From Elusimicrobia bacterium GWF2_62_30 (GTDB lineage: Bacteria > Elusimicrobiota > Elusimicrobia > Elusimicrobiales > UBA9959), in contig MGUK01000034.1 of assembly GCA_001799995.1 (NCBI GenBank), positions 1 to 47,305 on the forward strand: 47,305 nt of DNA, read 5' to 3'. Position 1 is the first letter of the stretch, and each line of letters starts with the position of its first letter. The notes under the pieces were generated by a model. The model did not search any database. It saw only the letters and a list, made by a program, of their open reading frames with translations, and had not been told where the DNA came from. The translations under genes were made by a program, and so were the position numbers. Positions 7,993 to 47,166 of this stretch are shown one piece after another.

Positions 7993-8487
7993 ATGGAAAT
8001 AAAGCCCTGCAACCCTTATAACTCGGTGGTGGTCGCTAAGAAGCTGCTGCGGCTGGCCGGCGGCTCTGCCTTCAAGATCTATTATGTAAGCCTTACGGGC
8101 CGGGCCAACCCCGAGAAATGCGATTGGGCCTTCTCTACGGTTACCGCCGATAAATTCGAGAGCGCGCTGGTGAAATTCAACCCGGAAGGCGTAGGGTTCA
8201 TAACGGCTTTCCCGCCTATTACCAAGATCTTCCGTTTTGCGCCTTCGGGCGAGACCATCCTGCACGTGCGCGGCCTGCAGACTGAGGGCCTGGCGCCGCT
8301 GGACCTTAACCGCCCCGACGGGTACCTGGAGTTCGCCTGCTACGCCGAGGCCGCCATAGCCGCCGACGAATACCGCAAATGGGCGGAAGCAAAAAACGTG
8401 GGCGAATACCTGGAATATTTCAGCCCGTTCACCGGCGGCCCCGTCGCCGACCACGCCAAACTCTCCGCCTACGCCGCCAAACTGTAA
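7993..8487 (+). CDS. Conserved-looking protein of unknown function
   Basis: 164-residue soluble protein that I cannot assign to a family. It has no signal peptide or membrane helix. Composition is normal for a globular alpha/beta protein, with aromatic-rich strands in the middle (FITAFPPITKIFRF) and a helical C-terminus. The start lies 3 bases after the peptidase stop codon, so it is almost certainly translated with that gene. A palindromic repeat element begins 6 bases after its stop codon and could end the transcript. Confidence 0.62.
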   Translation: MEIKPCNPYNSVVVAKKLLRLAGGSAFKIYYVSLTGRANPEKCDWAFSTVTADKFESALVKFNPEGVGFITAFPPITKIFRFAPSGETILHVRGLQTEGLAPLDLNRPDGYLEFACYAEAAIAADEYRKWAEAKNVGEYLEYFSPFTGGPVADHAKLSAYAAKL

Positions 8488-8492
8488 GTTTC

Positions 8493-8575
8493 AGGGGACG
8501 CTGGTAAGTATTTAAGCTTTTATCAACCGCCGGATAAAAAGTTAATAACAACTTCAATACTTACCAGCGTCCCCT
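8493..8575. repeat. 83-bp palindromic element, copy 1
   Basis: Two 35-base arms (8493-8527 and 8541-8575) are inverted repeats, identical over the outer 20 bases (AGGGGACGCTGGTAAGTATT) and at 31 of 35 positions by hand count. They enclose a 13-base loop. A second copy of exactly the same length lies at 20543-20625 in the opposite orientation. No transposase is encoded inside. The structure fits a REPIN/MITE-type non-autonomous element mobilised by a Y1 (RAYT-like) or other transposase elsewhere. I see no clear target-site duplication. Confidence 0.88.
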
Positions 8576-8646
8576 ATCCCCCCTATACCCCCCTAAAGCA
8601 TCGAATACGATCCCGCGGATCCGGAGTATTATTACTTCAGGGCCAT

Positions 8647-9828
8647 TTATAGGGAGAGGGTCAACGGTTGCCGGGAGTACCAGTACAGGAACTCGTCCCA
8701 CCCGGAGGCATGGGCCCAGGCCAGCCTTTCGTACGCGTAGTTGTAGGCTGAAGGGATGAAGACGGCTATGCCGCGCGAATCCCCGGAGTGGATGCTGTTG
8801 CGGGTATAGACCACCAGGTCTTTGGTTATATAGTCCTGCAGCGCCCGCCCGGCGGCGGCTACGGCGGGGGATTTCGTGCGCGCGCTTACCAGCCCGGCAA
8901 AATGCCACAGGTCCTTGCTGTCCGGCGCCGCGAACCACTGCGCGTCGTAGATGGCGCCTTTTATAACGTCCCTCTCTCCCGCCGAGACCAGGGCGGCGGC
9001 GAACCCGTCCGCGGCCTTCACCAGGCCCGGCAGCGCCGAGGCTTTAAGCAGGCTTTGGGTGTAATAGCGTTCGTCCGAGCCCTGGTAATGCTCGTAAAAA
9101 CTATCCACCACGGCCCTGCCCAGTTGCTCCGGGGCAAGCTCCGGCGCGGCCGACAGCGCGGCGAGGAACTTGTCGTAGGAATAACCGTCGGCCGGCTCCG
9201 TTTCTTCCGAACCCAGGATGTAGCCGGCGTGGTCCTTTATCTCGTAGGCTACCTCCGCCATCTGCATAAGGCAGGCGTCCGAGGCGTAAAGGTCCGCCCC
9301 GCCCATTTCCTGCAGGGCCAGGGCCAGTTGCTGCGTGGTTATATGGTTGCCGGTCTCGTAGTCGTCCGAGATCCCTTTTGCTCCGCTGCCGTCATATTTT
9401 TCCCAGCCTTTGCCGTGGTTCCAGACTATCAGCATGTATTTCTTCGCGGGATAGGCGGCCTTCGCCCATTTGCCGAACTCGGCCAGGTGGGTGTAATCCC
9501 CCATGTCCGTTTTTTCCTGGCTCCACAGTATGGGGGACGAGATCTTTTTTCCGTCCGCGTCCTTTTTTACCAGGTAGCGGCGCGCGCCCTTCCAGTCCCC
9601 ATCCGCGGAACTGTAGCCGGCCATGCGGCCCAGCTCGGTGACGATATTGACCCTGTCCGAAGAGCCTACCGCCTCCATCTCGTTCATGTCCTTGAGGGCG
9701 GCGCCTTCCAGGTTGTTCTTGCCGTTGAGGAAGACCATTATGGTCCAGTCCTTCGCCGGGGCCTGCCCGGCGTAAAGCCCTGCCGGGAAGGCCAGGGCCG
9801 CTGCGGCGATCAGTGTTTTTATCAGCAT
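8647..9828 (-). CDS. Exported clostripain-family (C11) cysteine protease 1
   Basis: 393-residue exported protease. A signal peptide covers residues 1-20 (cleavage likely after LYA). The C11 core begins at WTIMVFLNGKNNLE. The catalytic dyad is His138 in VWNHGKGW and Cys186 in SDACLMQ. Clostripain cleaves after arginine in known members, but specificity here is unproven. The start at 9828 has a perfect AAGGAG 5 bases upstream. The frame stays open for 45 more codons to an ATG at 9963 that encodes a second signal-like sequence and lies 9 bases after the stop of the preceding gene. It is the second gene of a two-gene operon with the exported protein at 9973, and is paralogous to the protease at 23698. 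Confidence 0.86.
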   Translation of the reverse strand: MLIKTLIAAAALAFPAGLYAGQAPAKDWTIMVFLNGKNNLEGAALKDMNEMEAVGSSDRVNIVTELGRMAGYSSADGDWKGARRYLVKKDADGKKISSPILWSQEKTDMGDYTHLAEFGKWAKAAYPAKKYMLIVWNHGKGWEKYDGSGAKGISDDYETGNHITTQQLALALQEMGGADLYASDACLMQMAEVAYEIKDHAGYILGSEETEPADGYSYDKFLAALSAAPELAPEQLGRAVVDSFYEHYQGSDERYYTQSLLKASALPGLVKAADGFAAALVSAGERDVIKGAIYDAQWFAAPDSKDLWHFAGLVSARTKSPAVAAAGRALQDYITKDLVVYTRNSIHSGDSRGIAVFIPSAYNYAYERLAWAHASGWDEFLYWYSRQPLTLSL

Positions 9829-9972
9829 GGGGACTCCTTTTATGTAGTTCAATGACACATAAACTTCTTTCAGCTTTTCAGGAGCGATGACCTGCGCGGC
9901 CGACGCGCCAGCGAGGATGGGCAGAATGAGCGCGAGCAGGCCGTAAATGGTTTTCCTTTTCATGATCCCCGT

Positions 9973-11079
9973 TTAGAACACCTTGCCCAGCAGGCCCTGC
10001 AGCAGCTGGCCGAACTCCAGCACATAGGTCTGGGTCTGCGGAATGTAAGCCAACTGCACGTGGGCCGGGATGAGCAGGGCGGAAAGCGCGCCTATGCCCG
10101 CCTGGGTAAGGGCGCTGTTCCAGGACATGGGGTTCTGCATCGTGCCCTGCCCGGTGGCCAAGCCGTTGAAGGTCCACCAGAACCAGCCCACGCCGTTCTC
10201 GCGGCAGTACGCCATGCTGCCGGGGCCGTCCCAGTTGGACCCCAGCTGCAGCAGGCCGGTTTCGGCTATGCCGTAGAACGCTATGTCGCAGCCGCCGGTC
10301 CACCAGAGCGTCATGAAGGACATGGCGGCCTCGGGGCTGATGTTGTTCCAGAGGTACGCCGTGGTGGCGCCCTGGAAGGTTACCTGCATCACCCGGTAAG
10401 GCAGGGTAGCGCCCAAGGTCCGGTTGAAGAAGTTGAAGAGCAGGTAGTCGAACAGCGCGAAGATGCCGGCCGCGCCGAAGGCCGCCCCTATCTGCGCCAG
10501 GTAGCCGGAGTTCGGGTGGTTGTTGGTGAGGAGGGTGCTCTGCAGGAAGCCGGGCTTGTGCACGGGGTTCTGCTGGTTATTGCCGGTGAAAGTTCCCTGG
10601 CCCAGCTGGTTCGAGAGGTTCAGCAGCGAAGAGGTGGGGTAGACGGGGTCGACATAGGGCTGGGTGGAGAGGGGTACCATGTAGCTGGTAAGGGGGGGAG
10701 GCACGTTGCCCATATTGCCGGTGTTGGGCGGGGGAACGTTCCCGTCCCGGGTTACCGAGCCGTCGAAAGAGTTCCGGAGGTTCTCAAAGGTATGGCGCAT
10801 TTTCTTCAGCTTTTCATATTCTTCGGACTGCCTGTTCAGCTCTCCCAGCGTAACTTTCGGCTTCCCGTCCGGCCCCAGCCCGGAACGCAGCGTGAGCTTG
10901 AGCATGGCCTCTTTTTCTTCATCCGTCATTTCCACCCGCTGCATGACGGGTTCCGGGTAGGTTTTCTCCCCGTTCTGCAAGAGCTCCTGCATGGAGGAGA
11001 GGTCCATTCCCGAAAGGTCCTGGGCCTTTGCCTGCCCGGGGACCGCCGCCAGAACCGCCGCTAATAGTATTTTTTTCAT
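9973..11079 (-). CDS. Exported protein of unknown function
   Basis: 368-residue protein with a signal peptide at 1-19 (MKKILLAAVLAAVPGQAKA). A charged coiled segment (about 45-105) contains a KVTLGELNRQSEEYEKLKK helix. A Pro/Asn/Gly-rich linker (115-190) follows, then a hydrophobic, aromatic C-terminal half with two or three possible membrane segments (about 200-345). I recognise no family. The ribosome-binding site is GGGAG 8 bases upstream. The downstream clostripain frame begins within 10-145 bases, so the two are probably co-expressed. Its upstream region carries copy A of the conserved divergent promoter block. Confidence 0.68.
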   Translation of the reverse strand: MKKILLAAVLAAVPGQAKAQDLSGMDLSSMQELLQNGEKTYPEPVMQRVEMTDEEKEAMLKLTLRSGLGPDGKPKVTLGELNRQSEEYEKLKKMRHTFENLRNSFDGSVTRDGNVPPPNTGNMGNVPPPLTSYMVPLSTQPYVDPVYPTSSLLNLSNQLGQGTFTGNNQQNPVHKPGFLQSTLLTNNHPNSGYLAQIGAAFGAAGIFALFDYLLFNFFNRTLGATLPYRVMQVTFQGATTAYLWNNISPEAAMSFMTLWWTGGCDIAFYGIAETGLLQLGSNWDGPGSMAYCRENGVGWFWWTFNGLATGQGTMQNPMSWNSALTQAGIGALSALLIPAHVQLAYIPQTQTYVLEFGQLLQGLLGKVF

Positions 11080-11121
11080 AACCTTTCTCCCTGCCGTAAG
11101 ATCGCGCTTCCCTTCACTGAT

Positions 11122-11127
11122 AGTATA
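11122..11127 (-). promoter_or_regulatory. -10 box upstream of the exported-protein/clostripain operon
   Basis: TATACT on the minus strand, 43 bases before the ATG at 11079, with no recognisable -35 hexamer at 16-18 bases. This suggests activator dependence. It lies 68 bases from conserved block A, the same distance as at the two sister loci. Confidence 0.45.
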
Positions 11128-11194
11128 GGGCGCGGGGGGCTTTACGGCCTGGGGCGCCGGCCCCGAAAATCCGGCATTTTAGCCCCAGGGATTT

Positions 11195-11261
11195 TGCCTC
11201 TTCGGCTCAGGTATGAATTGTCACTGAAATCCTGAAAATGGTGAACCGCTGCTTCTCTATG
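11195..11261. repeat. Conserved divergent-promoter block, copy A
   Basis: This 67-base block aligns without gaps to 12362-12428 and 18870-18936. Shared landmarks are TGCCTCTT at the left, an A/T-rich centre, GGTGAACC and the right-end GCTTC-CTATG. By hand count it matches copy B at 48 of 67 positions. In copy C the block is the promoter and start codon of a regulator gene. Here the -35 is degraded to TTCGGC and the ATG leads directly into the antisense of the gene at 11271, so the plus-strand promoter function is probably lost. The block may still act as an upstream operator for the minus-strand gene. Confidence 0.75.
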
Positions 11262-11270
11262 AAAAACGGG

Positions 11271-12257
11271 TCACTGGATCAAAGGCAGTACGGACCGGTC
11301 ATACAGGTCCATCATCCCCGTCAGGTCCCCGCTCATGCACGCCGTATAACCTTTCGATGACGGGTCAAAAGGATTATAGGCGAGGCGCTTATCATAACAA
11401 ACGGCGCCCTGCATTTTAGAGGATCTTACGGTGTTATCTATGAGGAAATTACCCGATTTGCCGAACAGGTATTTCTGCGCCTCGGTGATAGAGCCGTACT
11501 TGAGCATAGCAGCGGTCAGCATTGCCGTTACCGCTGTTTTTTCCAGGCCTTTAAGCACGCTGTTGTTGTCAAGCGAGATGATGTTCTCCCGGTAATTCAG
11601 GTTGGTCAGCCCGTCCAGCAGGCTGTTTATTACGCCGCCCATGCCGCACATCATGCCCGCTTCCCCGGGTAGATATCCGCACAGGCCCATCAGCTCCCCG
11701 AATATCCTGCTCTCGGATTTTTTCGGCAGCACCTCGCGCAGCATATCGTCCCGGAAGGCCTTTAAAATGCCCCTGCACACCTCGCCCCTGTCCGGCATCG
11801 GCACGCTGTTGTCGGTCCTGGTGACGACTATGTGCAGGTCCGTCAGGTTATAATACGTGCTTTGCGCTCCCTGGTCTGACAGCCAGGTCTTAACCTCCAT
11901 GCTGGCGCCGAAGGAGCCCGAAAGGTCGTTGTAGTCGTACTGTTCACTTTTGCCTTTCCCGTTGCGGCAGTTGAAGATGACCGCCGAATATTTATCGTTC
12001 GAAGATTTGGGCAGGCCCAGGGCGGGCGGATAACCCGGGCTGTCGGGGAAATTGGCGTAGCCGTTGGGTGTGGTATTTGAAGCGAACTTCGGGTACGGGC
12101 CGTAGCAGTTCCCGTCCCCGCACCCGTATGCGAGGCGATACTCGCGGTTGTAACTCGCGTATTTCCAGGTGTAGATGAAGTCGGAATAGTCGTCTTCGGC
12201 GGCGGCGGTCCCGGCGAATGAAACCGCCAGGAACAGAACTTTTATAATAGTTTTCAT
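11271..12257 (-). CDS. Exported cysteine-rich protein of unknown function
   Basis: 328-residue protein with a signal peptide at 1-20 (MKTIIKVLFLAVSFAGTAAA). The mature part contains about nine cysteines (CGDGNC, FNCRNGKG, VCRGILK, LCGYLPGEAGMMCG, AVCYDK, TACMSG), consistent with disulfides in the periplasm or outside the cell. I recognise no domain. GGAG lies 6-7 bases before the start. Its last codons (RSVLPLI) and downstream sequence recur in degraded form at 12437-12475, so the locus has undergone a local duplication. It belongs to the group of exported genes preceded by the conserved promoter block (copy B). Confidence 0.68.
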   Translation of the reverse strand: MKTIIKVLFLAVSFAGTAAAEDDYSDFIYTWKYASYNREYRLAYGCGDGNCYGPYPKFASNTTPNGYANFPDSPGYPPALGLPKSSNDKYSAVIFNCRNGKGKSEQYDYNDLSGSFGASMEVKTWLSDQGAQSTYYNLTDLHIVVTRTDNSVPMPDRGEVCRGILKAFRDDMLREVLPKKSESRIFGELMGLCGYLPGEAGMMCGMGGVINSLLDGLTNLNYRENIISLDNNSVLKGLEKTAVTAMLTAAMLKYGSITEAQKYLFGKSGNFLIDNTVRSSKMQGAVCYDKRLAYNPFDPSSKGYTACMSGDLTGMMDLYDRSVLPLIQ

Positions 12258-39479: not shown

Positions 39480-40706
39480 TCAGGCTTCTTCCCGCTCCTC
39501 TTCGGCCCACCAGTATTCCGCGCGCAGTTCGTCGGCGAGTTCCCGGTTCATGTCCGCTATTTCGGCGGGGGAGACGGTGCGGGTTATGGAGTTAAGCGGA
39601 TGCTTCAGCAGGTCCACGGAGCGGGGCGGGATGCGGTTGAATTCCGCGTCCAGCAGGACCTCCACTACCGGCTTGGTAAGCGAGCCGGGGTTTACGCAGC
39701 TGACGCGGGCTATTTCCCCGGTAGAGAGGGCTACCAGCGAATTCGGCGGGTAGATCGACAGCGCGGCGATAAGCGCCTTGACCGTCTTCGCGCTGAAACC
39801 GCGCCCTTCTTTCTCTATCAGCTCGCGCACCACGTCGGGCGGGTTCAGGGCCTCGCGCCAGGGGCGCGGGTGCGTCATGGCCTCGTAGACGTCGGCGATG
39901 CCTATTATCTGGGCGAGGGGGTCTATCTCCTCGCCCGAAAGCCTGTCGGGATAGCCCGAGCCATCCAGGCGCTCATGGGTCTGAAGCAGTATCAGCTTGG
40001 CGCGCTCCTTAAGCTTATAGTCCAGGTCCACTATCCGGTCCAGCATGCGCATCCCCGCTTCGGTGTGCAGGGTTATCTCCGAAAAATCCTCGTCGCTAAG
40101 GCGCTCTTTGCTGTTGTAGAGTTCCTTGTACTCCGTCATGCCTATGTCGTGGGCCATCGCGCAGAAGCCAAGGAATTCCAGGTCGCTGTCCGAAAAGCCC
40201 GCGGCGCGCCCGAAGGCCAGCGCGAGTATCGCGGTGTTGGCGGTATGCGCCGCAAGGTAGTCGGTCCCGGTCGAATAGGAGGTGAAGTTCAGCAGGACGG
40301 GGTTGGTCTTGAGCGCCGCGGACGCGGCTTTGCAGGCGCGGATGACGGAGTCGTACTGTTCCGTATAAGGCTGCTCTATGCGGCGCAGGAGCTCGGAGGC
40401 CTGCTCCAGCATGCGGGTGTAAACCTCCCTGGCCCGCGCGCGCAGTTCCCTGAAAGAAGGCCCCGGGGGTACTTCGGCGGCCGGCCTGGCCCTGGGCATG
40501 GCCGGTTCCGCGGGGCGCGGCTCTTCCTTTTCCCGCTCCCGGACGACCGGCAGCTTTTCCTCCGGGGCGGCGGCTTGCGGCGGGCGGTCCGGGGCGGCGC
40601 TCTCGGCGGCGGAAGCCGCGGCCGGGCCCGGGGCCGCGCGTTTTGGCGGCGCGGGTTCAGCGGGTTCCGGCCTGTGCTTGAGCTTGTTCAGGTCCGAGAA
40701 TTTCAT
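39480..40706 (-). CDS. HD-GYP domain phosphodiesterase
   Basis: 408 residues. Residues 10-85 are a Pro/Ala/Glu-rich disordered region and 85-140 a helical segment. The HD-GYP domain (about 145-330) has HTANTA, the HD pair His186-Asp187 (MAHDIG), HTEAGMRML, His244 in LLQTHERLDGSGYPD with GYP at 251-253, and ADVYEAMTHPRP. Its C-terminal 80 residues match the extension seen in stand-alone HD-GYP proteins. Active members hydrolyse c-di-GMP or cGAMP. A TACAAT box 6 bases before the ATG predicts leaderless transcription. Confidence 0.9.
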   Translation of the reverse strand: MKFSDLNKLKHRPEPAEPAPPKRAAPGPAAASAAESAAPDRPPQAAAPEEKLPVVREREKEEPRPAEPAMPRARPAAEVPPGPSFRELRARAREVYTRMLEQASELLRRIEQPYTEQYDSVIRACKAASAALKTNPVLLNFTSYSTGTDYLAAHTANTAILALAFGRAAGFSDSDLEFLGFCAMAHDIGMTEYKELYNSKERLSDEDFSEITLHTEAGMRMLDRIVDLDYKLKERAKLILLQTHERLDGSGYPDRLSGEEIDPLAQIIGIADVYEAMTHPRPWREALNPPDVVRELIEKEGRGFSAKTVKALIAALSIYPPNSLVALSTGEIARVSCVNPGSLTKPVVEVLLDAEFNRIPPRSVDLLKHPLNSITRTVSPAEIADMNRELADELRAEYWWAEEEREEA

Positions 40707-40712
40707 ACCTAT

Positions 40713-40718
40713 ATTGTA
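40713..40718 (-). promoter_or_regulatory. -10 box abutting the HD-GYP start codon
   Basis: TACAAT on the minus strand at 40718-40713, 6 bases from the ATG at 40706. No strong -35 found. Confidence 0.5.
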
Positions 40719-40756
40719 CCTGCGGGCGGTTAAATAATGATTACAGAACCATTAAT

Positions 40757-41875
40757 TTATGAATGGATGGTTTTTTCGTAGATGCGGTATTTCTTGTAGA
40801 CGCGGCCGCCGATAGCCTCTATGGAGTTGTTTATCTGCGTGTTGTCTTCCAGCGTCCAGGACATCTCGCCGTGGACCCATTCCATCTTCTTGCCGGCCTC
40901 TATGGCCGTTTTTATCAGCAGCATTTCCAGGCCGCGGCCGCGGAATTCTTTCTTCACGCCCAGCGTGAGCATGCGCCCGGCGCGCATCTTGAACAGCATC
41001 CGGTACAGGAAAGGCAGGAGCGTGAAAGGGTTCAGGCTGCCGCGGGCGGCTTTGAGCGCCACGTTGAAATCCGGCAGCATCATGACGAAAGCGGCCGGCT
41101 TGCCGTCCACCCGGGCGAAGTAGAGATAGTCCGGCTTGAGCATGGGCTTCAGGGCGGCGGCCAGGTCGTCCATCTCGGCGGCGGTCATGGGGATGAAGCC
41201 CCAGTTTTTCTCCCAGGCCGAGTTGTAGATGTCCTTAAGGTCGGCTATCGCGGCGTCCAGGTTCTTGATGTCGACGAAATCCACGGTGACGTTGCCGCCG
41301 CGCGTTATGCGCTTTACCAGCTTTTCGAAACGTTCCGGGAAGCCCTGCGCCACTTCCATGGTGTAGGCCAGCAGGTCCTTGGCCTTGGCGTAGCCGACCG
41401 CCTCTATCAGGCCCGCGTAGTAGGGCGGGTTGTAGGGCATCATCACCATCGGCGTGGAATCGAAGCCCTCTATCAGCAGGCCGCAGGTCTCGTTGGTCGA
41501 GGGGTTCACCGGTCCGCGGATCAGGTCCATGCCCTTGGCGCGCAGGTACTTTTCCGCGGCGGCGAACAGCCCTGCCGCCGCTTCGTGGTCCTCGGCGCAG
41601 TCGAAAAAGCCGAAGAAGCCGCAGTTCTCGCTGTGGAAGGAGTTGTGTGCCCGGTTGACTATGGCGGCTATGCGCCCGGCGGGCTTGCCGTCCCTGTAGG
41701 CCATGAAAAGGGCGCGCTCCCCGTGCAGCCAGAAGGGGTGGGCGTTGTCCAGCAGGTGGCGGATGTCCTTTTTCAGCTCGCCGACCCAGTACGGGTGGTC
41801 CCTGAAAAGGGCGAAGGGATAGTCGATGAACTCGTTAAGAGCCTCTGCGGGGAGCTCCCGTATTTCTATGGACAT
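40757..41875 (-). CDS. YghO/bacterial ceramide synthase-like GNAT-fold acyltransferase
   Basis: 372 residues. The N-terminal half has FALFRDHPYWVGELKKDI and a GNAT-like strand (ERALFMAYRDGKPAGRIAAIVN) followed by GFFGFFDCAEDHEAAAGLF. The middle contains GPVNPSTNETCGLLIEGF and the second GNAT-like fold ends in LTLGVKKEFRGRGLEMLLI. This double-GNAT architecture matches E. coli YghO and the bacterial ceramide synthases that N-acylate 3-ketosphinganine. The adjacent upstream gene is serine-palmitoyltransferase-like (33 bases away), which strongly favours the sphingolipid role. No Shine-Dalgarno sequence is evident. Confidence 0.78.
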   Translation of the reverse strand: MSIEIRELPAEALNEFIDYPFALFRDHPYWVGELKKDIRHLLDNAHPFWLHGERALFMAYRDGKPAGRIAAIVNRAHNSFHSENCGFFGFFDCAEDHEAAAGLFAAAEKYLRAKGMDLIRGPVNPSTNETCGLLIEGFDSTPMVMMPYNPPYYAGLIEAVGYAKAKDLLAYTMEVAQGFPERFEKLVKRITRGGNVTVDFVDIKNLDAAIADLKDIYNSAWEKNWGFIPMTAAEMDDLAAALKPMLKPDYLYFARVDGKPAAFVMMLPDFNVALKAARGSLNPFTLLPFLYRMLFKMRAGRMLTLGVKKEFRGRGLEMLLIKTAIEAGKKMEWVHGEMSWTLEDNTQINNSIEAIGGRVYKKYRIYEKTIHS

Positions 41876-41908
41876 AATAGTGGTATGGTGCCGGCGAACG
41901 CCTGCGGC

Positions 41909-43117
41909 TTATCTTGCCGCCGCGGCGTGTTTTTTCCCGAGCACTTTCTTTACGCAGGTCTCGAAGATATTGAGCGCGCGGTCCAGCTGTTCCCTGGTGT
42001 GGGTGGCGGTGGCCACCACGCGCAGCAGGGCCCGCTTGGGGGGGACGGCCGGGCTGACCACCGGGTTGGTGAACAGGCCGTTGTCGTAAAGCATGCGCCA
42101 GAGCATGAAGGTCTTCTCGTTGTCGCCTATGACGACCGGGATTATCGGCGTCTTGGTCTCGCCGGTATTAAGGCCCATGTCCTTGAAGCGCTTCATCAGG
42201 TAGGCGGCGTTGTCCCACAGCTTCTTGATGCGCTGCGGCTCTTCTTCTATGATCTCGATGGCCTTTATGATGGAGGCCACCGAGGACGGCGGCAGCGCGG
42301 CCGAGAAGATCATGGAGCGGGAAATATGCTGGATGTAGTGGAGGATGTCCGCGTCGCCCACCGCGAAGCCGCCCACCGAGGCGAAGGACTTGGAGCAGGT
42401 GCCCACTACCAGGTCCACTTCCTTGTGGGAGAGGCCGAAATATTCGCAGGTGCCGCGGCCGCGCTTGCCCAGCACGCCGGTGGCGTGGGCGTCGTCCACC
42501 ATCAGGCGGGCGCCGTACTTCTTGCAGACCTTGGAGATCTCCGGGATGGGGGCTATGTCGCCCTCCATGGAGAAGACGCCGTCCACGATGACCAGCTTGC
42601 CGTGGCGGGGGCCTATCTCTTTGAGCACCTTGTCGAGGTTCTCGGGATCGTTGTGCTTGAAGCGGCGCAGTTCGCCGTGGGACAGCCGGCAGCCGTCCAG
42701 GATGCTGGCGTGGTTGAGCTTGTCGATGATGGCGAAATCGCCCTTGCCGACCAGGGCGGACACCACGCCCAGGTTCATCTGGTAGCCGGTGGCGTAGATG
42801 AGGGCGGCTTCCCGGCCCTTGAAAGCCGCGAGCTTGCGCTCCAGTTCCATGTGCAGGATGGTGTTGCCGTTGAGAAAGCGCGAGCCGGCCACTCCGGTGC
42901 CGAACTTGTGTACCGCCTCAATGGCGGACTTCTTCATCCGGGGGTCGTTGGCCAGGCCCAGGTAGTTATTGGAGCCGAACATGATGAACTTCTTGCCCTT
43001 TATCATTATCTCGGGGGCCTGTTCGGATTCGAGTTCCTTGAAATAGGGGTAGATGCCGGAGGCGATGAGCTGCTTAACGATGTCGAAGTTGCGGCACTTT
43101 TCAAAAATGTCAATCAT
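41909..43117 (-). CDS. spt: Serine palmitoyltransferase-like alpha-oxoamine synthase
   Basis: 402-residue PLP enzyme of the Kbl/BioF/HemA/SPT family. PLP lysine Lys243 lies in GTCSKSFASVGG; His136 (NHAS), Asp208 and His211 (VDDAHATG) form the rest of the cofactor site. Features closer to bacterial SPT than to Kbl or BioF include the N-terminal GIYPYFKELES, FGSNNYLGL, GSRFLNGN, KHNDPENLDKVL, VDGVFSMEGDIA and the ending NPVVSPAVPPKRALLRVVATATHT. SPT condenses serine with palmitoyl-CoA or -ACP to 3-ketosphinganine. It starts an operon with the ceramide-synthase-like gene. Automatic annotation would probably say glycine C-acetyltransferase. Confidence 0.82.
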   Translation of the reverse strand: MIDIFEKCRNFDIVKQLIASGIYPYFKELESEQAPEIMIKGKKFIMFGSNNYLGLANDPRMKKSAIEAVHKFGTGVAGSRFLNGNTILHMELERKLAAFKGREAALIYATGYQMNLGVVSALVGKGDFAIIDKLNHASILDGCRLSHGELRRFKHNDPENLDKVLKEIGPRHGKLVIVDGVFSMEGDIAPIPEISKVCKKYGARLMVDDAHATGVLGKRGRGTCEYFGLSHKEVDLVVGTCSKSFASVGGFAVGDADILHYIQHISRSMIFSAALPPSSVASIIKAIEIIEEEPQRIKKLWDNAAYLMKRFKDMGLNTGETKTPIIPVVIGDNEKTFMLWRMLYDNGLFTNPVVSPAVPPKRALLRVVATATHTREQLDRALNIFETCVKKVLGKKHAAAAR

Positions 43118-43128
43118 AGTATCCAGAT

Positions 43129-43157
43129 ATTCTATTAAATTGCGCTGCTGTATGCAC
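43129..43157 (-). promoter_or_regulatory. Promoter of the SPT-like operon
   Basis: Minus strand GTGCAT (43157-43152), 17-base spacer, TAGAAT (43134-43129), 11 bases from the ATG at 43117, giving a very short leader. Confidence 0.5.
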
Positions 43158-43212
43158 TACCGAGAGGGCCAGGAAGCGGCTAGTTCCCGCTGTGGCCGGC
43201 TTTTCGCGGACA

Positions 43213-43676
43213 TTACTTACCCATTTTTTTCGCCAGGGACGTGGTGGAGCGGCCTTTGAGCAGCGGCACCAGGGCCACCCGGCCGGCGAATTGGGCGCCT
43301 ACCACCTCGTCCCGGCCGTAGTCCCCGCCTTTTACCAGCACGTCCGGGCGCAGGGCCTTGAGCAGGGCGAACGGCGTATCCTCTCCGAAAACCACCACCG
43401 CGTCCACCGCGGCCAGGGCCGCCAGCACCCGGGCCCTGTCGGCCGTCCTGTTGAACGGGCGGGAGGGGCCCTTGAGGCGCCTCACCGAAGCGTCCGAGTT
43501 CAGCCCCAGGAACAGGAAATCCCCGAATGAGCGGGCCTTCTCCAGCACGGTGATATGCCCCGCGTGGAGTATGTCGAAACAGCCGTTGGTGAAAACGGCC
43601 TTCTTCCCCCGGCGCTTCAGGGCCGCGCGCAGGGCGCAGGCCTTTTTAATGGTGACGATCTTGCCTGCGGTGAACA

Positions 43677-43677
<1 letters not shown>
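43213..43677 (-). CDS. rfaE2: D-glycero-beta-D-manno-heptose 1-phosphate adenylyltransferase
   Basis: 154-residue nucleotidyltransferase. FTNGCFDILHAGHI contains the HxGH motif (38-41), with LNSDASVRRLKG, RPFNRTADRARVLAAL, VKGGDY and the C-terminal GRSTTSLAKK phosphate-binding motif. Length equals the RfaE domain II enzyme separated from its kinase half. It activates heptose 1-phosphate to ADP-heptose for LPS core. Its ATG shares one base with the accC stop codon (TAATG), so it is translated with accC, an unusual pairing. Confidence 0.92.
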
Positions 43678-45041
<1,364 letters not shown>

Positions 45042-45090
45042 GGATCCTCCAGGAAAATCATCGCGCCGCGCTTGCCCGCCGGCGCGGCCG

Positions 45091-46785
45091 CTACTGTCTT
45101 TCGTCCGAGCGCGGCTGCAGCAGGGCGGGGTCCAGGACGGGCGCCTTTTCCACCTTTCCCTTGCTGGTCCACAGATTCACGAAAAAGACGAAAATGTCGG
45201 AAGTCTCCCGCTTCCTGGTGGCCTGGTCCAGGACTTCCTGGCGCAGGTAGACGCGGTATTCGGGCCCGGAGAGGTGCACGGCCAGCCATTCGTCCTTCGG
45301 CAGGTACCTGGCGCCCTTGGCGCCGAGCTTGGCCGCCAGGGCGTCCAGCTGCCGCCGGCGCACCGACCGCACGGGCGGGCTGCCGGGCTGCAGGCGGGAC
45401 CTCTTGGCAAAATCTATGGCCTCGTTGGAGGCGGCGCCGCTCATGTAGGCCTGGCGCTTCAGGGCGTCGTCCCTGGACGGGCCCTGCACGCAGACCGTGC
45501 CGGCGCGCATTACGTCCGCCAGGGCCTTCTCGTAATTCTTGGTGTTGACGTAGACGTCCGCCCGGTTGAGAAAGATGGGGCATTGCTGTTCCACGGTCAG
45601 TTCCGGGAGCTTGAGCATCTTCTCGTATTCGTCCAGGGCGGCGCGGTTGCGCTCCAGGAGGCGGAGGCTGTCGGCGTAATAAAGGTTGAACCAGTAGAGT
45701 TCCTGCCCCGTGTAGCCCACCGGGTAGGCGGCGGCCGCCTCCAGGGTGCGGCTACAGGATTCCACGGACCGGTCGTAGAGGCTCATGAAGAATTCCGAGG
45801 CGCACAGGTAGCCGGAGGCGCGCGGGTCCATGGGGTCCGTCAGGTAAAGCTTCTGCGCCAGGAACAGCGCCTGGGTGAAATCCTGGCGGCTCATGGCCTC
45901 GTCGATGGGCTGGAACAGCATCCAGATATAGGGCCGCGCCCAGCGGTCATGTTCCTGCACGAAGGAGAGGTAGTCGGTCTTCCAGGGGCCGCTGCCTTCC
46001 TTGAGCTGGTACTTTATCATCGCGCCCTGCTTGGCCATGGTAAAGATCTGCACGTCCCGGAACTGCCAGGGCGGCGTCTTTGCATAGTAGTCCCTGTTGT
46101 AGGCGATATAGTCTTCCAGGGAGCAGACGGATTTGGAATTGGCGGAAAGCTGGTCGTAGGCCTCTTCGTACTTGCCCTGCTGCATGTTCGTCAGGTAGTC
46201 CTTGGCCGTCATGGTCAGGCGCAGCTTGGGCATGAACGGGGCTATTACGAAATAGCCGATCACGGACATGATGGCGAGCACGGTCAGCGACATGGCCGGG
46301 CCGGTAAGCTTTTTGGCCATGTTGGATGTGGGGATGGCCGGCATGGGCGGCCTGGTGGCGGCCGCGTTCTTTTCCGAATACGGGATCTTCTGCGTCAGGT
46401 CCGGGCGGGAAGTGTCCTGCTTCGCCGGGCCGGCGGCCGGCGGGGGCGGCGGCTTGGGCTGCTGATCGTCCACATGCCGCCTGAAAGAGGCGTATTTTTC
46501 GCTTACGGCGTCCTGCATGCTCTGGATCTCAAGGCACCGGGGCGGGTCTTTCTGTTGTTCCGCCGGCGGCTGCTTCTGCGGCGGAGGCGGCGGAGCCTGC
46601 TGCGGGACCGCCGGGGAGAGCAGCTGGCCGCACTGGTCGCAATAGTTCTTTTCTACGGAATTGGAAAAACCGCAGGCGCCGCACTTCTTTTCAAGCGCGG
46701 CGCCGCATTTCAGGCAGGTGTCGCCCAGCACGTTCGGCTCGAAGCCGCACTTGGGGCACCTGATCACGGCTGGTTTTCCCGCCAT
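45091..46785 (-). CDS. Double zinc-ribbon, single-span membrane protein with TPR-like C-terminus
   Basis: 564 residues. Four CxxC pairs (CPKC, CLKC; CGAC, CDQC; residues 10-52) form two zinc ribbons. A proline/glutamine-rich linker (57-150) follows, one membrane helix (about 163-185, MSLTVLAIMSVIGYFVIAPF), an NTF2/DUF4878-like segment (195-290: AKDYLTNMQQGKYEEAYDQLS) and helical TPR-like repeats (about 300-460). I know no function. It starts 3 bases after accB and ends 49 bases before accC, so it is embedded in the acetyl-CoA carboxylase operon. Confidence 0.74.
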   Translation of the reverse strand: MAGKPAVIRCPKCGFEPNVLGDTCLKCGAALEKKCGACGFSNSVEKNYCDQCGQLLSPAVPQQAPPPPPQKQPPAEQQKDPPRCLEIQSMQDAVSEKYASFRRHVDDQQPKPPPPPAAGPAKQDTSRPDLTQKIPYSEKNAAATRPPMPAIPTSNMAKKLTGPAMSLTVLAIMSVIGYFVIAPFMPKLRLTMTAKDYLTNMQQGKYEEAYDQLSANSKSVCSLEDYIAYNRDYYAKTPPWQFRDVQIFTMAKQGAMIKYQLKEGSGPWKTDYLSFVQEHDRWARPYIWMLFQPIDEAMSRQDFTQALFLAQKLYLTDPMDPRASGYLCASEFFMSLYDRSVESCSRTLEAAAAYPVGYTGQELYWFNLYYADSLRLLERNRAALDEYEKMLKLPELTVEQQCPIFLNRADVYVNTKNYEKALADVMRAGTVCVQGPSRDDALKRQAYMSGAASNEAIDFAKRSRLQPGSPPVRSVRRRQLDALAAKLGAKGARYLPKDEWLAVHLSGPEYRVYLRQEVLDQATRKRETSDIFVFFVNLWTSKGKVEKAPVLDPALLQPRSDERQ

Positions 46786-46788
46786 TTT

Positions 46789-47166
46789 TTACTTCGGTTC
46801 CACGAAGAACATGGGCTGGCCGTATTCCACCGGTTTGCCGTCCTCTATGGAGATGATCTTGAGCAGGCCGTTGGCCGGCGCGGTTACGCTCTTGAAATCC
46901 TTGCCCACCTCTACGATGCCCAGTTCCTGGCCCTTCTTTACGGAGGCGCCCTCTTTGAGGTGATTGGTCTTGCCGGGGCGGGCGAAACGGAAAATGCCTA
47001 TCGACGGCGCGAGCACGGGCTCCATGGCCGAGGAGAGCACGGAATTGTGCACGGGGTTGTTGTTGAACTTGAGGCTGATCTTGTCCTCCCCGTTCTTCCA
47101 GGTTATCTCTTCCAGGTCCGTAGACTCCATCCACTTGGTCAGCTTGGTCAGTGTTTTTACGTCCAT
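46789..47166 (-). CDS. accB: AccB-like biotin carboxyl carrier protein with atypical biotin motif
   Basis: 125 residues, shorter than E. coli AccB (156). The N-terminal helix (TKLTKWMESTDLEEITWKNGEDKISLKF) and thumb-less lipoyl/biotinyl domain (VLAPSIGIFRF ... PVEYGQPMFFVEP) match the BCCP layout. The normal acceptor tetrapeptide AMKM is replaced: IVEVGKDFKSV places Lys89 in the right position but without either flanking methionine. The accC context supports AccB identity. GGAGG precedes the ATG by 4 bases. Whether Lys89 is biotinylated is open. Confidence 0.85.
   Translation of the reverse strand: MDVKTLTKLTKWMESTDLEEITWKNGEDKISLKFNNNPVHNSVLSSAMEPVLAPSIGIFRFARPGKTNHLKEGASVKKGQELGIVEVGKDFKSVTAPANGLLKIISIEDGKPVEYGQPMFFVEPK

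Follow-up and report, generated by a model that had tools for sequence, protein, structure and literature searches.

Bacterial ceramide synthesis has been described in Caulobacter crescentus, whose spt/bcerS/cerR route uses the same three enzyme types as those considered here (PMC11087976, PMC11324152); we liken the two by the published description of that route, its proteins standing outside our sequence comparison. By the account in PMC11324152, bacterial cerS always lies in an operon other than that of aasR, cerR, acpR and spt. Escherichia coli has an spt-acpR-epi-aasR/yghO cluster, in which an SPT-type gene lies near yghO together with genes for an acyl carrier protein (ACP) and an acyl-AMP ligase, and PMC9386255 lists YghO as what corresponds in E. 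coli to the acyltransferase that Caulobacter requires for dihydroceramide. Serine palmitoyltransferase (SPT) itself is represented by the solved enzyme of Sphingobacterium multivorum (3a2b, 8guh), and Rubrobacter and Streptomyces plasmid runs carry an SPT-type gene, then at once a GNAT gene and, third, a reductase-type gene.

We analyzed a stretch of 47,305 nucleotides from Elusimicrobia bacterium GWF2_62_30 (contig MGUK01000034.1; the window), in which a gene for an SPT-type alpha-oxoamine synthase of 402 aa (41909..43117, minus strand) is followed, after a 33-nt gap (41876..41908, minus strand), by a gene for a YghO/bCerS-type GNAT N-acyltransferase of 372 aa (40757..41875, minus strand). 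We read this pair as the putative first two enzymes of a bacterial ceramide route, with a CerR-type reductase encoded elsewhere in the genome, and assign this reading a probability of roughly 0.8. It draws on gene identity as judged from sequence and residues, from the clade, and from synteny and co-occurrence; from this we infer the substrates, the order of the steps, the function of CerR, co-transcription and the lipid itself. In contrast to Caulobacter, the GNAT gene lies directly 3' of spt, no ACP gene adjoins the pair, and no AasR orthologue was detected in the genome, which is 84% complete. In E. coli, yghO is divergent from the spt run, unlike the arrangement in the window; the order seen in the Rubrobacter and Streptomyces runs is that of the window, and their GNATs are 43% and 38% identical to its GNAT, respectively, whereas their third gene has its candidate equivalent here on another contig.

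The preliminary description had named an SPT-like PLP enzyme followed after 33 bases by a GNAT protein; both open reading frames and the gap are present, as are the motifs GIYPYFKELES (residue 21), GSRFLNG (residue 78) and VDGVFSMEGD (residue 178) and Lys243, which aligns with the PLP lysine of the S. multivorum SPT. The compared catalytic residues are the same in the two enzymes, and N50, H136, D208, H211, T240, K243 and R366 were invariant in all 20 aligned rows; since these residues are common to Kbl and BioF too, they are necessary but insufficient for assignment as SPT. The top NCBIfam model was SerpalmtaseCFB (NF047600) at 528.8 bits, below its curated cut-off of 640, so that the protein is not filed as a member, and the top PDB chains were those of the S. 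multivorum SPT (427 bits, residues 5-384). Phylogenetic analysis separated 87 SPT-type rows (3a2b included) from four Kbl/BioF rows, two of which were flagged as long branches, with support of 100/99, and placed the window protein on the SPT side with the solved and operon-linked SPTs. The grouping inside Kbl/BioF that the preliminary description had named as refuting its reading thus did not appear. The S. multivorum SPT was not in its nearest clade; the nearest row was Elusimicrobia bacterium GWC2_64_44 (90% identical), in agreement with the Elusimicrobiota-like organism presumed from the letters.

The choice of this enzyme among serine, alanine and glycine, and between acyl-CoA and acyl-ACP, is not readable from these data. 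The alternative that fares best, though we consider it unlikely, is that the SPT-type enzyme favours alanine or glycine above serine and that the pair makes 1-deoxy-ceramide-type lipids in place of true ceramides. PMC11334938 describes alanine as an alternative Spt substrate that yields the backbone of 1-deoxyCer, and 1-deoxysphingolipids are reported there from euxinic water; the residues that we compared do not separate serine from alanine use. The best solved match, however, bears the name serine palmitoyltransferase, and nothing that we found favours alanine.

The GNAT gene was assigned by Pfam and by its relationship to YghO, through which its likeness to bCerS was judged, Caulobacter bCerS being outside the comparison. 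E. coli YghO is a full-length relative at 36% identity (35.4% over 96% of the query in a second comparison), which supports the proposed pairing of an SPT with a bCerS. With regard to the "double GNAT" architecture proposed earlier, the GNAT signal given by Pfam was confined to residues 187-331 in the C-terminal half, where PF00583 matched at 31.3 bits.

We then consider whether the GNAT might be a YghO-family acyltransferase for another substrate that stands beside SPT for some other reason, which appears improbable. NCBIfam searches matched no model to this protein, and among 80 loci fetched with the GNAT, 16 with room to see an SPT had none, a plasmid copy from Roseomonas (38% identical) likewise having no SPT annotated within 13 kb. 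Against this, SPT adjoined the GNAT in 58 of the 80 loci, spread over many phyla, and in 19 of 20 chosen Elusimicrobiota loci, proportions which indicate that the pairing is more than chance. Furthermore, Rubrobacter and Streptomyces carry SPT-GNAT-oxidoreductase runs, and E. coli yghO adjoins SPT-, ACP-, epimerase- and acyl-AMP-ligase-type genes. In a sample of 198 genomes of the phylum, SPT (E <= 2.2e-138) was found in 70 of 70 members of the window's order, and all 70 also had a GNAT match, two of them weak; in the 25 sampled class-mates (families f3-f9), by contrast, there was no GNAT match and the SPT query met only Kbl-level matches or none, a difference that represents one clade set against others and not independent events. 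The three-gene run was also observed in a genome apparently of the cultured Endomicrobium proavitum, and two related genomes of the Endomicrobia type have lost SPT and retained bCerS and CerR.

Two further alternatives concern the identity of the PLP enzyme. A SulA-like first enzyme condensing cysteate, with the pair making sulfonolipids, is very improbable: SulA and SPT have a common fold and active site (PMC9304779), and the PDB matches include a cysteate enzyme (28eh, 258.2 bits) and SulA (7u7h, 243.7 bits), but the S. multivorum SPT match is far higher and Ala273 occupies the site of SulA Lys281, as placed by Lys+30 spacing from the PLP lysine and not by alignment with SulA; we set a cysteate enzyme aside on this residue. 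A Kbl or BioF identity can be dismissed with still greater assurance, despite strong matches to both models (BioF 400.5 bits, Kbl 380.4 bits) and more raw identity with the Kbl of the same genome (41%) than with E. coli SPT (37%), on the basis of the tree split, the GSR motif, residue 273, which is Ala in all 16 SPT-type rows and 3a2b but Ser, Asn and Thr in the three aligned Kbl/BioF rows, and a separate Kbl elsewhere in the genome (479.3 bits against the glycine C-acetyltransferase cut-off of 460) adjoining a Tdh-like gene.

For the ceramide route, a third enzyme would be required, and the window holds no ceramide reductase gene, as the preliminary description had observed. It had suggested that an epimerase-type CerR be sought elsewhere, and a candidate lies on another contig of the same genome (G000:C37:29519-30460), which scored 244.3 bits against operon-linked CerR-type proteins, with the genome's next match at 106.7 bits. 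All 24 genomes searched have an epimerase-family match at 1e-20, so that presence means little without such a score gap. An orthologue of the candidate occurs in 67 of 70 members of the order. Outside the order, 44 genomes have a match at 1e-55, which falls on the gene beside SPT in 35, and a CerR-type gene lies directly upstream of SPT in 11 of 16 chosen loci, in contrast to its third place in Rubrobacter and Streptomyces. The candidate, which adjoins exbB-exbD-tonB, forms a clade of its own (100/99) and does not fall inside the Elusimicrobiota operon CerRs, the tree giving that clade no firm deep position relative to operon CerRs and to certain other epimerases; the CerR model gives a higher score (272.8 bits) to a relative in one genome with neither a GNAT nor an SPT-level match (G061). 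Among NCBIfam models, the candidate matched the hopanoid-associated epimerase HpnA best (97.7 bits), but so did three operon or reference CerR-type proteins (122.1, 92.6 and 113.8 bits), so that this model does not discriminate; an HpnA identity was rejected, all of these scores lying far below the cut-off of 367.65. Taken together, sequence comparison makes it likely that the candidate is CerR.

A dedicated ACP, for which a search elsewhere had also been suggested, did not emerge. ACP-like stretches lie on three other contigs, where inspection by eye showed an ACP after a FabG-like gene (C39), ACPs among ketosynthase- and ketoreductase-like genes (C50), in a neighbourhood that we take to resemble an aryl polyene cluster, and a tandem-ACP megasynthase-like open reading frame (C85); none lies by SPT, and all were set aside. 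The best AasR match in the genome was a 418-aa frame at 70.8 bits. The dedicated ACP and acyl-ACP synthetase of an AcpR/AasR-dependent (Rhodobacteria-type) SPT system were thus not found in the 84% complete genome, whose missing part may hold them.

Upstream, the pair belongs to a longer run of genes on the same strand, extending at least to accB at 47166. An rfaE2-type (HldE C-terminal domain) heptose 1-phosphate adenylyltransferase gene (43213..43731; TIGR02199 184.1 bits, cut-off 181.5) lies 95 nt upstream of SPT, preceded by accC biotin carboxylase (43677..45041; TIGR00514 647.2 bits, cut-off 626.5), a zinc-ribbon protein (45091..46785; PF12773 27.7 bits, cut-off 27.3) and an accB-like biotinyl-domain protein (46789..47166; PF00364 41.8 bits; TIGR00531 62.2 bits, below its cut-off of 115.2), all on the minus strand. 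Among 23 loci of the window's order, which include two pairs of same-sequence loci, the rfaE2-type gene was the upstream neighbour of SPT in all 23, accC lay upstream and the accB-like gene was present in all 23, and the zinc-ribbon gene between accB and accC was matched in 17; the SPT-GNAT pair comes after accB-accC-rfaE2 in this order. The earlier proposal of a pair under one promoter found no support: scanning for promoters and terminators yielded nothing usable and turned up no sigma-70-like site on the coding strand between 40500 and 43400, and the pair sits inside the longer run. By its position at the end of a run with the acetyl-CoA carboxylase genes accB and accC and an ADP-heptose gene, the pair may couple ceramide output in the window's order to the supply of fatty acids and of LPS core.

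In the proposed route, SPT would form 3-ketosphinganine by condensing a long-chain acyl thioester with an amino acid, most probably L-serine; the YghO/bCerS-type GNAT would N-acylate this product to keto-ceramide, and the candidate CerR-type NAD-dependent reductase would convert this to dihydroceramide; the lineage would thereby make ceramide-type lipids. The conserved spt-bcerS adjacency fits this step order, with acylation before reduction, and contrasts with the split arrangement described in PMC11324152.

The literature that we searched held no report of sphingolipids or their synthesis in Elusimicrobiota; a Black Sea paper counts 38 phyla, and its main text has no word beginning with Elusimicrobi, although its supplementary tables may list the phylum (PMC11334938). 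By sequence matches, the SPT-bCerS pair recurs through much of this poorly known phylum. We tentatively suggest, as a possibility somewhat short of even odds, that most Elusimicrobiota have ceramide-type lipids at the core of their envelope, that the window's order has integrated long-chain-base synthesis into an accB-accC-rfaE2-spt-bcerS run of envelope genes, and that some Endomicrobia-type genomes, having lost SPT and kept bCerS and CerR under purifying selection, salvage long-chain bases. Ceramides in these genomes would then be built from long-chain bases of the surroundings, possibly of a eukaryotic host. Salvage of long-chain bases by bacteria is called not clear in PMC11324152, and genomes without SPT but with the two later genes would offer a natural test of it. 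Should the predicted function of the pair prove correct, a large part of Elusimicrobiota would join the bacterial sphingolipid makers, apparently including a pure culture, and cultured members make the ceramide prediction testable.

The two genes of the pair were recovered in the ORF listing, both on the minus strand: the serine palmitoyltransferase-type gene (SPT) at 41909..43117 and the YghO-type N-acyltransferase gene (GNAT, or bCerS) at 40757..41875. The 33-nt gap between them, three SPT motifs and Lys243 all agree with the preliminary description; its proposal that one promoter serves the pair found no support: the minus strand over 40500-43400 showed no sigma-70-like site.

We compared SPT with the related PLP enzymes Kbl and BioF. 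Its raw identity is 41% to the Kbl of its own genome and 37% to E. coli SPT, so identity alone does not settle the assignment. The top NCBIfam model was SerpalmtaseCFB (528.8 bits, under the cut-off of 640), with bioF at 400.5 and glycine C-acetyltransferase at 380.4 bits; the best solved chains were those of S. multivorum SPT (427 bits), followed by 8s1y (313.9 bits), named BioF/Kbl and presumably a Thermus protein. A tree of 91 rows separated the four Kbl/BioF sequences (the own-genome paralogue, E. coli Kbl, E. coli BioF and 8s1y, the two E. coli proteins being flagged as long branches) with support of 100/99 from 87 SPT-type rows, which include 3a2b, E. coli SPT and a Pseudomonas plasmid SPT. 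The window protein fell on the SPT-type side, closest to that of Elusimicrobia bacterium GWC2_64_44 (90% identical). Searching the genome assembly (2.91 Mb, 84% complete) at E ≤ 1e-5 matched two places, SPT itself and a paralogue on contig C84 that passes the glycine C-acetyltransferase cut-off (479.3 vs 460) and adjoins a gene that scores best with the L-threonine 3-dehydrogenase model (338.7 bits, short of the cut-off of 458.35). With this separate Kbl beside a Tdh-like gene, the reading of the SPT-like protein as itself the Kbl/BioF enzyme, named in the preliminary description as the outcome that would count against it, is therefore not borne out.

N50, H136, D208, H211, T240, K243 and R366 were conserved in 20/20 rows of the alignment. 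At position 273 the 16 SPT-type rows and 3a2b all carry Ala, against Ser in the own Kbl, Asn in E. coli Kbl and Thr in E. coli BioF. The cysteate enzyme SulA is described as marked by Lys281, 30 residues past its PLP Lys251, where SPTs carry alanine (PMC9304779); we equated position 273 with Lys281 by its spacing from the PLP lysine. Several other Elusimicrobiota families have SPTs with a C-terminal extension of ~40-50 residues (loci L063, L066, L068, L070 and L074), basic-rich by eye and missing from the window SPT.

The GNAT protein, proposed in the preliminary description to be a double GNAT, gave a Pfam GNAT signal at residues 187-331 only. It shares 36% identity with E. coli YghO, 43% with a Rubrobacter, 38% with a Streptomyces and 38% with a Roseomonas plasmid GNAT. 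The E. coli record (L082) holds genes for an SPT-type enzyme, an acyl carrier protein (ACP), an epimerase and a fatty acyl-AMP ligase, with yghO in divergent orientation, matching the set given for BL21 in PMC9386255 (spt, acpR, epi, aasR, aca/yghO). SPT-GNAT-oxidoreductase runs are present in Rubrobacter and Streptomyces, whose GNATs are compared above, and on the Roseomonas plasmid no annotated SPT lies within 13 kb of GNAT. Among the best 80 of at least 588 matches in a GNAT-alignment profile search of genome contigs, SPT lay next to GNAT (on the same strand and no more than 400 nt away) in 58 (52 upstream, 6 downstream; split over two ORFs in L203) and nearby in 2; 4 loci were cut by contig ends, and the remaining 16, with 1.5 kb or more visible on each side, showed no SPT. 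A gene of the type of ceramide reductase (CerR; >150 bits), the third enzyme of the bacterial ceramide route, stood in 34 of these best 80.

We then surveyed 198 genomes of the phylum, grouped by kinship labels: 70 from the window's order (Elusimicrobiales), 25 class-mates (families f3-f9) and 103 others. GNAT was matched at E ≤ 1e-5 in 160. All 70 order members had SPT (E ≤ 2.2e-138) and a GNAT match, two of them weak (G045, 4.8e-37; G183, 5.0e-16), whereas GNAT was found in 0/25 class-mates, of which 23 gave SPT-query matches no better than 6.2e-103, the level of the window genome's own Kbl, and 2 gave none at 1e-60. This contrast may reflect a single gain or loss event. The 103 others had GNAT in 90 and SPT at E ≤ 1e-118 in 85. 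In 20 SPT loci hand-picked to span families, SPT and GNAT were adjacent in 19 (exception, G029), and a CerR-type gene lay directly upstream of SPT in 11 of the 16 outside the order, as in G023 (L076), with CerR-type (8154-9134), SPT (9155-10348) and GNAT (10395-11516) on one strand.

For the window's genome, the expectation of an epimerase-type CerR elsewhere yielded a candidate. An alignment of 15 CerR-type proteins found contig C37:29519-30460 at 244.3 bits (next best, 106.7), which is likely, though unproven, to be CerR. Queried with the order's candidates alone, orthologues at E ≤ 2.2e-95 were found in 67/70 order members (missing in G108, G019 and G130, the last being partly matched where a contig ends) and 0/25 class-mates, with at most 11 first-look candidates scored per genome, so that a miss is no proof of absence. 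One class-mate, G061, had a weaker relative (3.8e-68) that scored 272.8 bits with the 15-protein alignment, above the window genome's own candidate. Outside the order, 44/128 genomes matched at 1e-55: 35 beside an SPT gene or fragment, 8 elsewhere and 1 unjudgeable. The order's candidates group together as a separate clade (100/99), with no clear support for its deeper placement relative to operon CerRs and certain further epimerases. The C37 candidate adjoins exbB, exbD and tonB-like genes; L139 8017-11446 carries exbB-exbD-tonB, then small proteins and the CerR-like reductase, and portions of this arrangement reappear in the six further order loci examined. The aligned CerR-type proteins start nearly at the Rossmann motif (except L065, with a longer, doubtful start), and so cannot accommodate a signal peptide at the N-terminus; Caulobacter CerR has been placed in the periplasm, with an NADH problem noted (PMC11087976).

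Upstream of SPT, accB, accC and rfaE2 occurred in this order in 23/23 order loci (L078-L081, L152, L155-L162, L164, L165 and L238-L245, G034 included; L080/L160 and L241/L159 are identical sequences), and a zinc-ribbon protein was matched in 17. bCerS followed SPT in 22; in the exception, L152 (G045), SPT is in place at 8560-9768 with no bCerS beside it, the weak match being that genome's sole GNAT. The run, closely spaced across the order (window part, 43213-47166), links fatty-acid initiation, ADP-heptose and ceramide genes. The accB-like protein (46789-47166) apparently carries EVGK, read by eye, at the biotin-carrier motif, usually EAMK. No orthologue of the acyl-ACP synthetase AasR was found in the genome (best match 70.8 bits, in a 418-aa frame), and ACP-like stretches stand away from the pair. 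Large synthase-like ORFs occur at L254 (contig C85, 1-11604), one with three tandem ACP domains and presumably of secondary-lipid type, and L256 (C50) holds a gene group that resembles aryl polyene synthesis.

Two Endomicrobia-type genomes of genus g29, in the same family as G023 and both 99% complete, keep GNAT and CerR-type ORFs only: in G017 (L235, 4713-7112) with a 240-nt gap and no SPT between, and in G001 (L236, 2883-5701) with a 695-nt gap holding SPT-like scraps (best E 1.5e-4). Whole-genome SPT searches gave each a single match elsewhere, 32% identical at ~2e-69 to 4e-69, the Kbl level. SPT has been lost from between the two ORFs, perhaps in a single event. Between these genomes dN/dS is ~0.17 for GNAT (0.123/0.731) and ~0.15 for CerR (0.119/0.789), and both genes therefore look selected; part of this divergence could predate the loss. 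These organisms may salvage long-chain bases from outside; the accessible text of PMC11257099, which deals with genome reduction in Endomicrobia, contains no word starting with sphingo, ceramide or lipid.

The window gene order differs from the one PMC11324152 describes for its bacteria, and is common to actinobacterial plasmids and many other phyla in this analysis. Spt-like proteins have been reported from 38 Black Sea phyla, often clustered with bCerS and CerR (PMC11334938, in whose main text Elusimicrobi* is not named), and among the paper listings consulted on sphingolipids, ceramide or serine palmitoyltransferase in Elusimicrobia and Elusimicrobiota none concerned synthesis. The pair would therefore represent a new case, in Elusimicrobiota, of an already known enzyme type.
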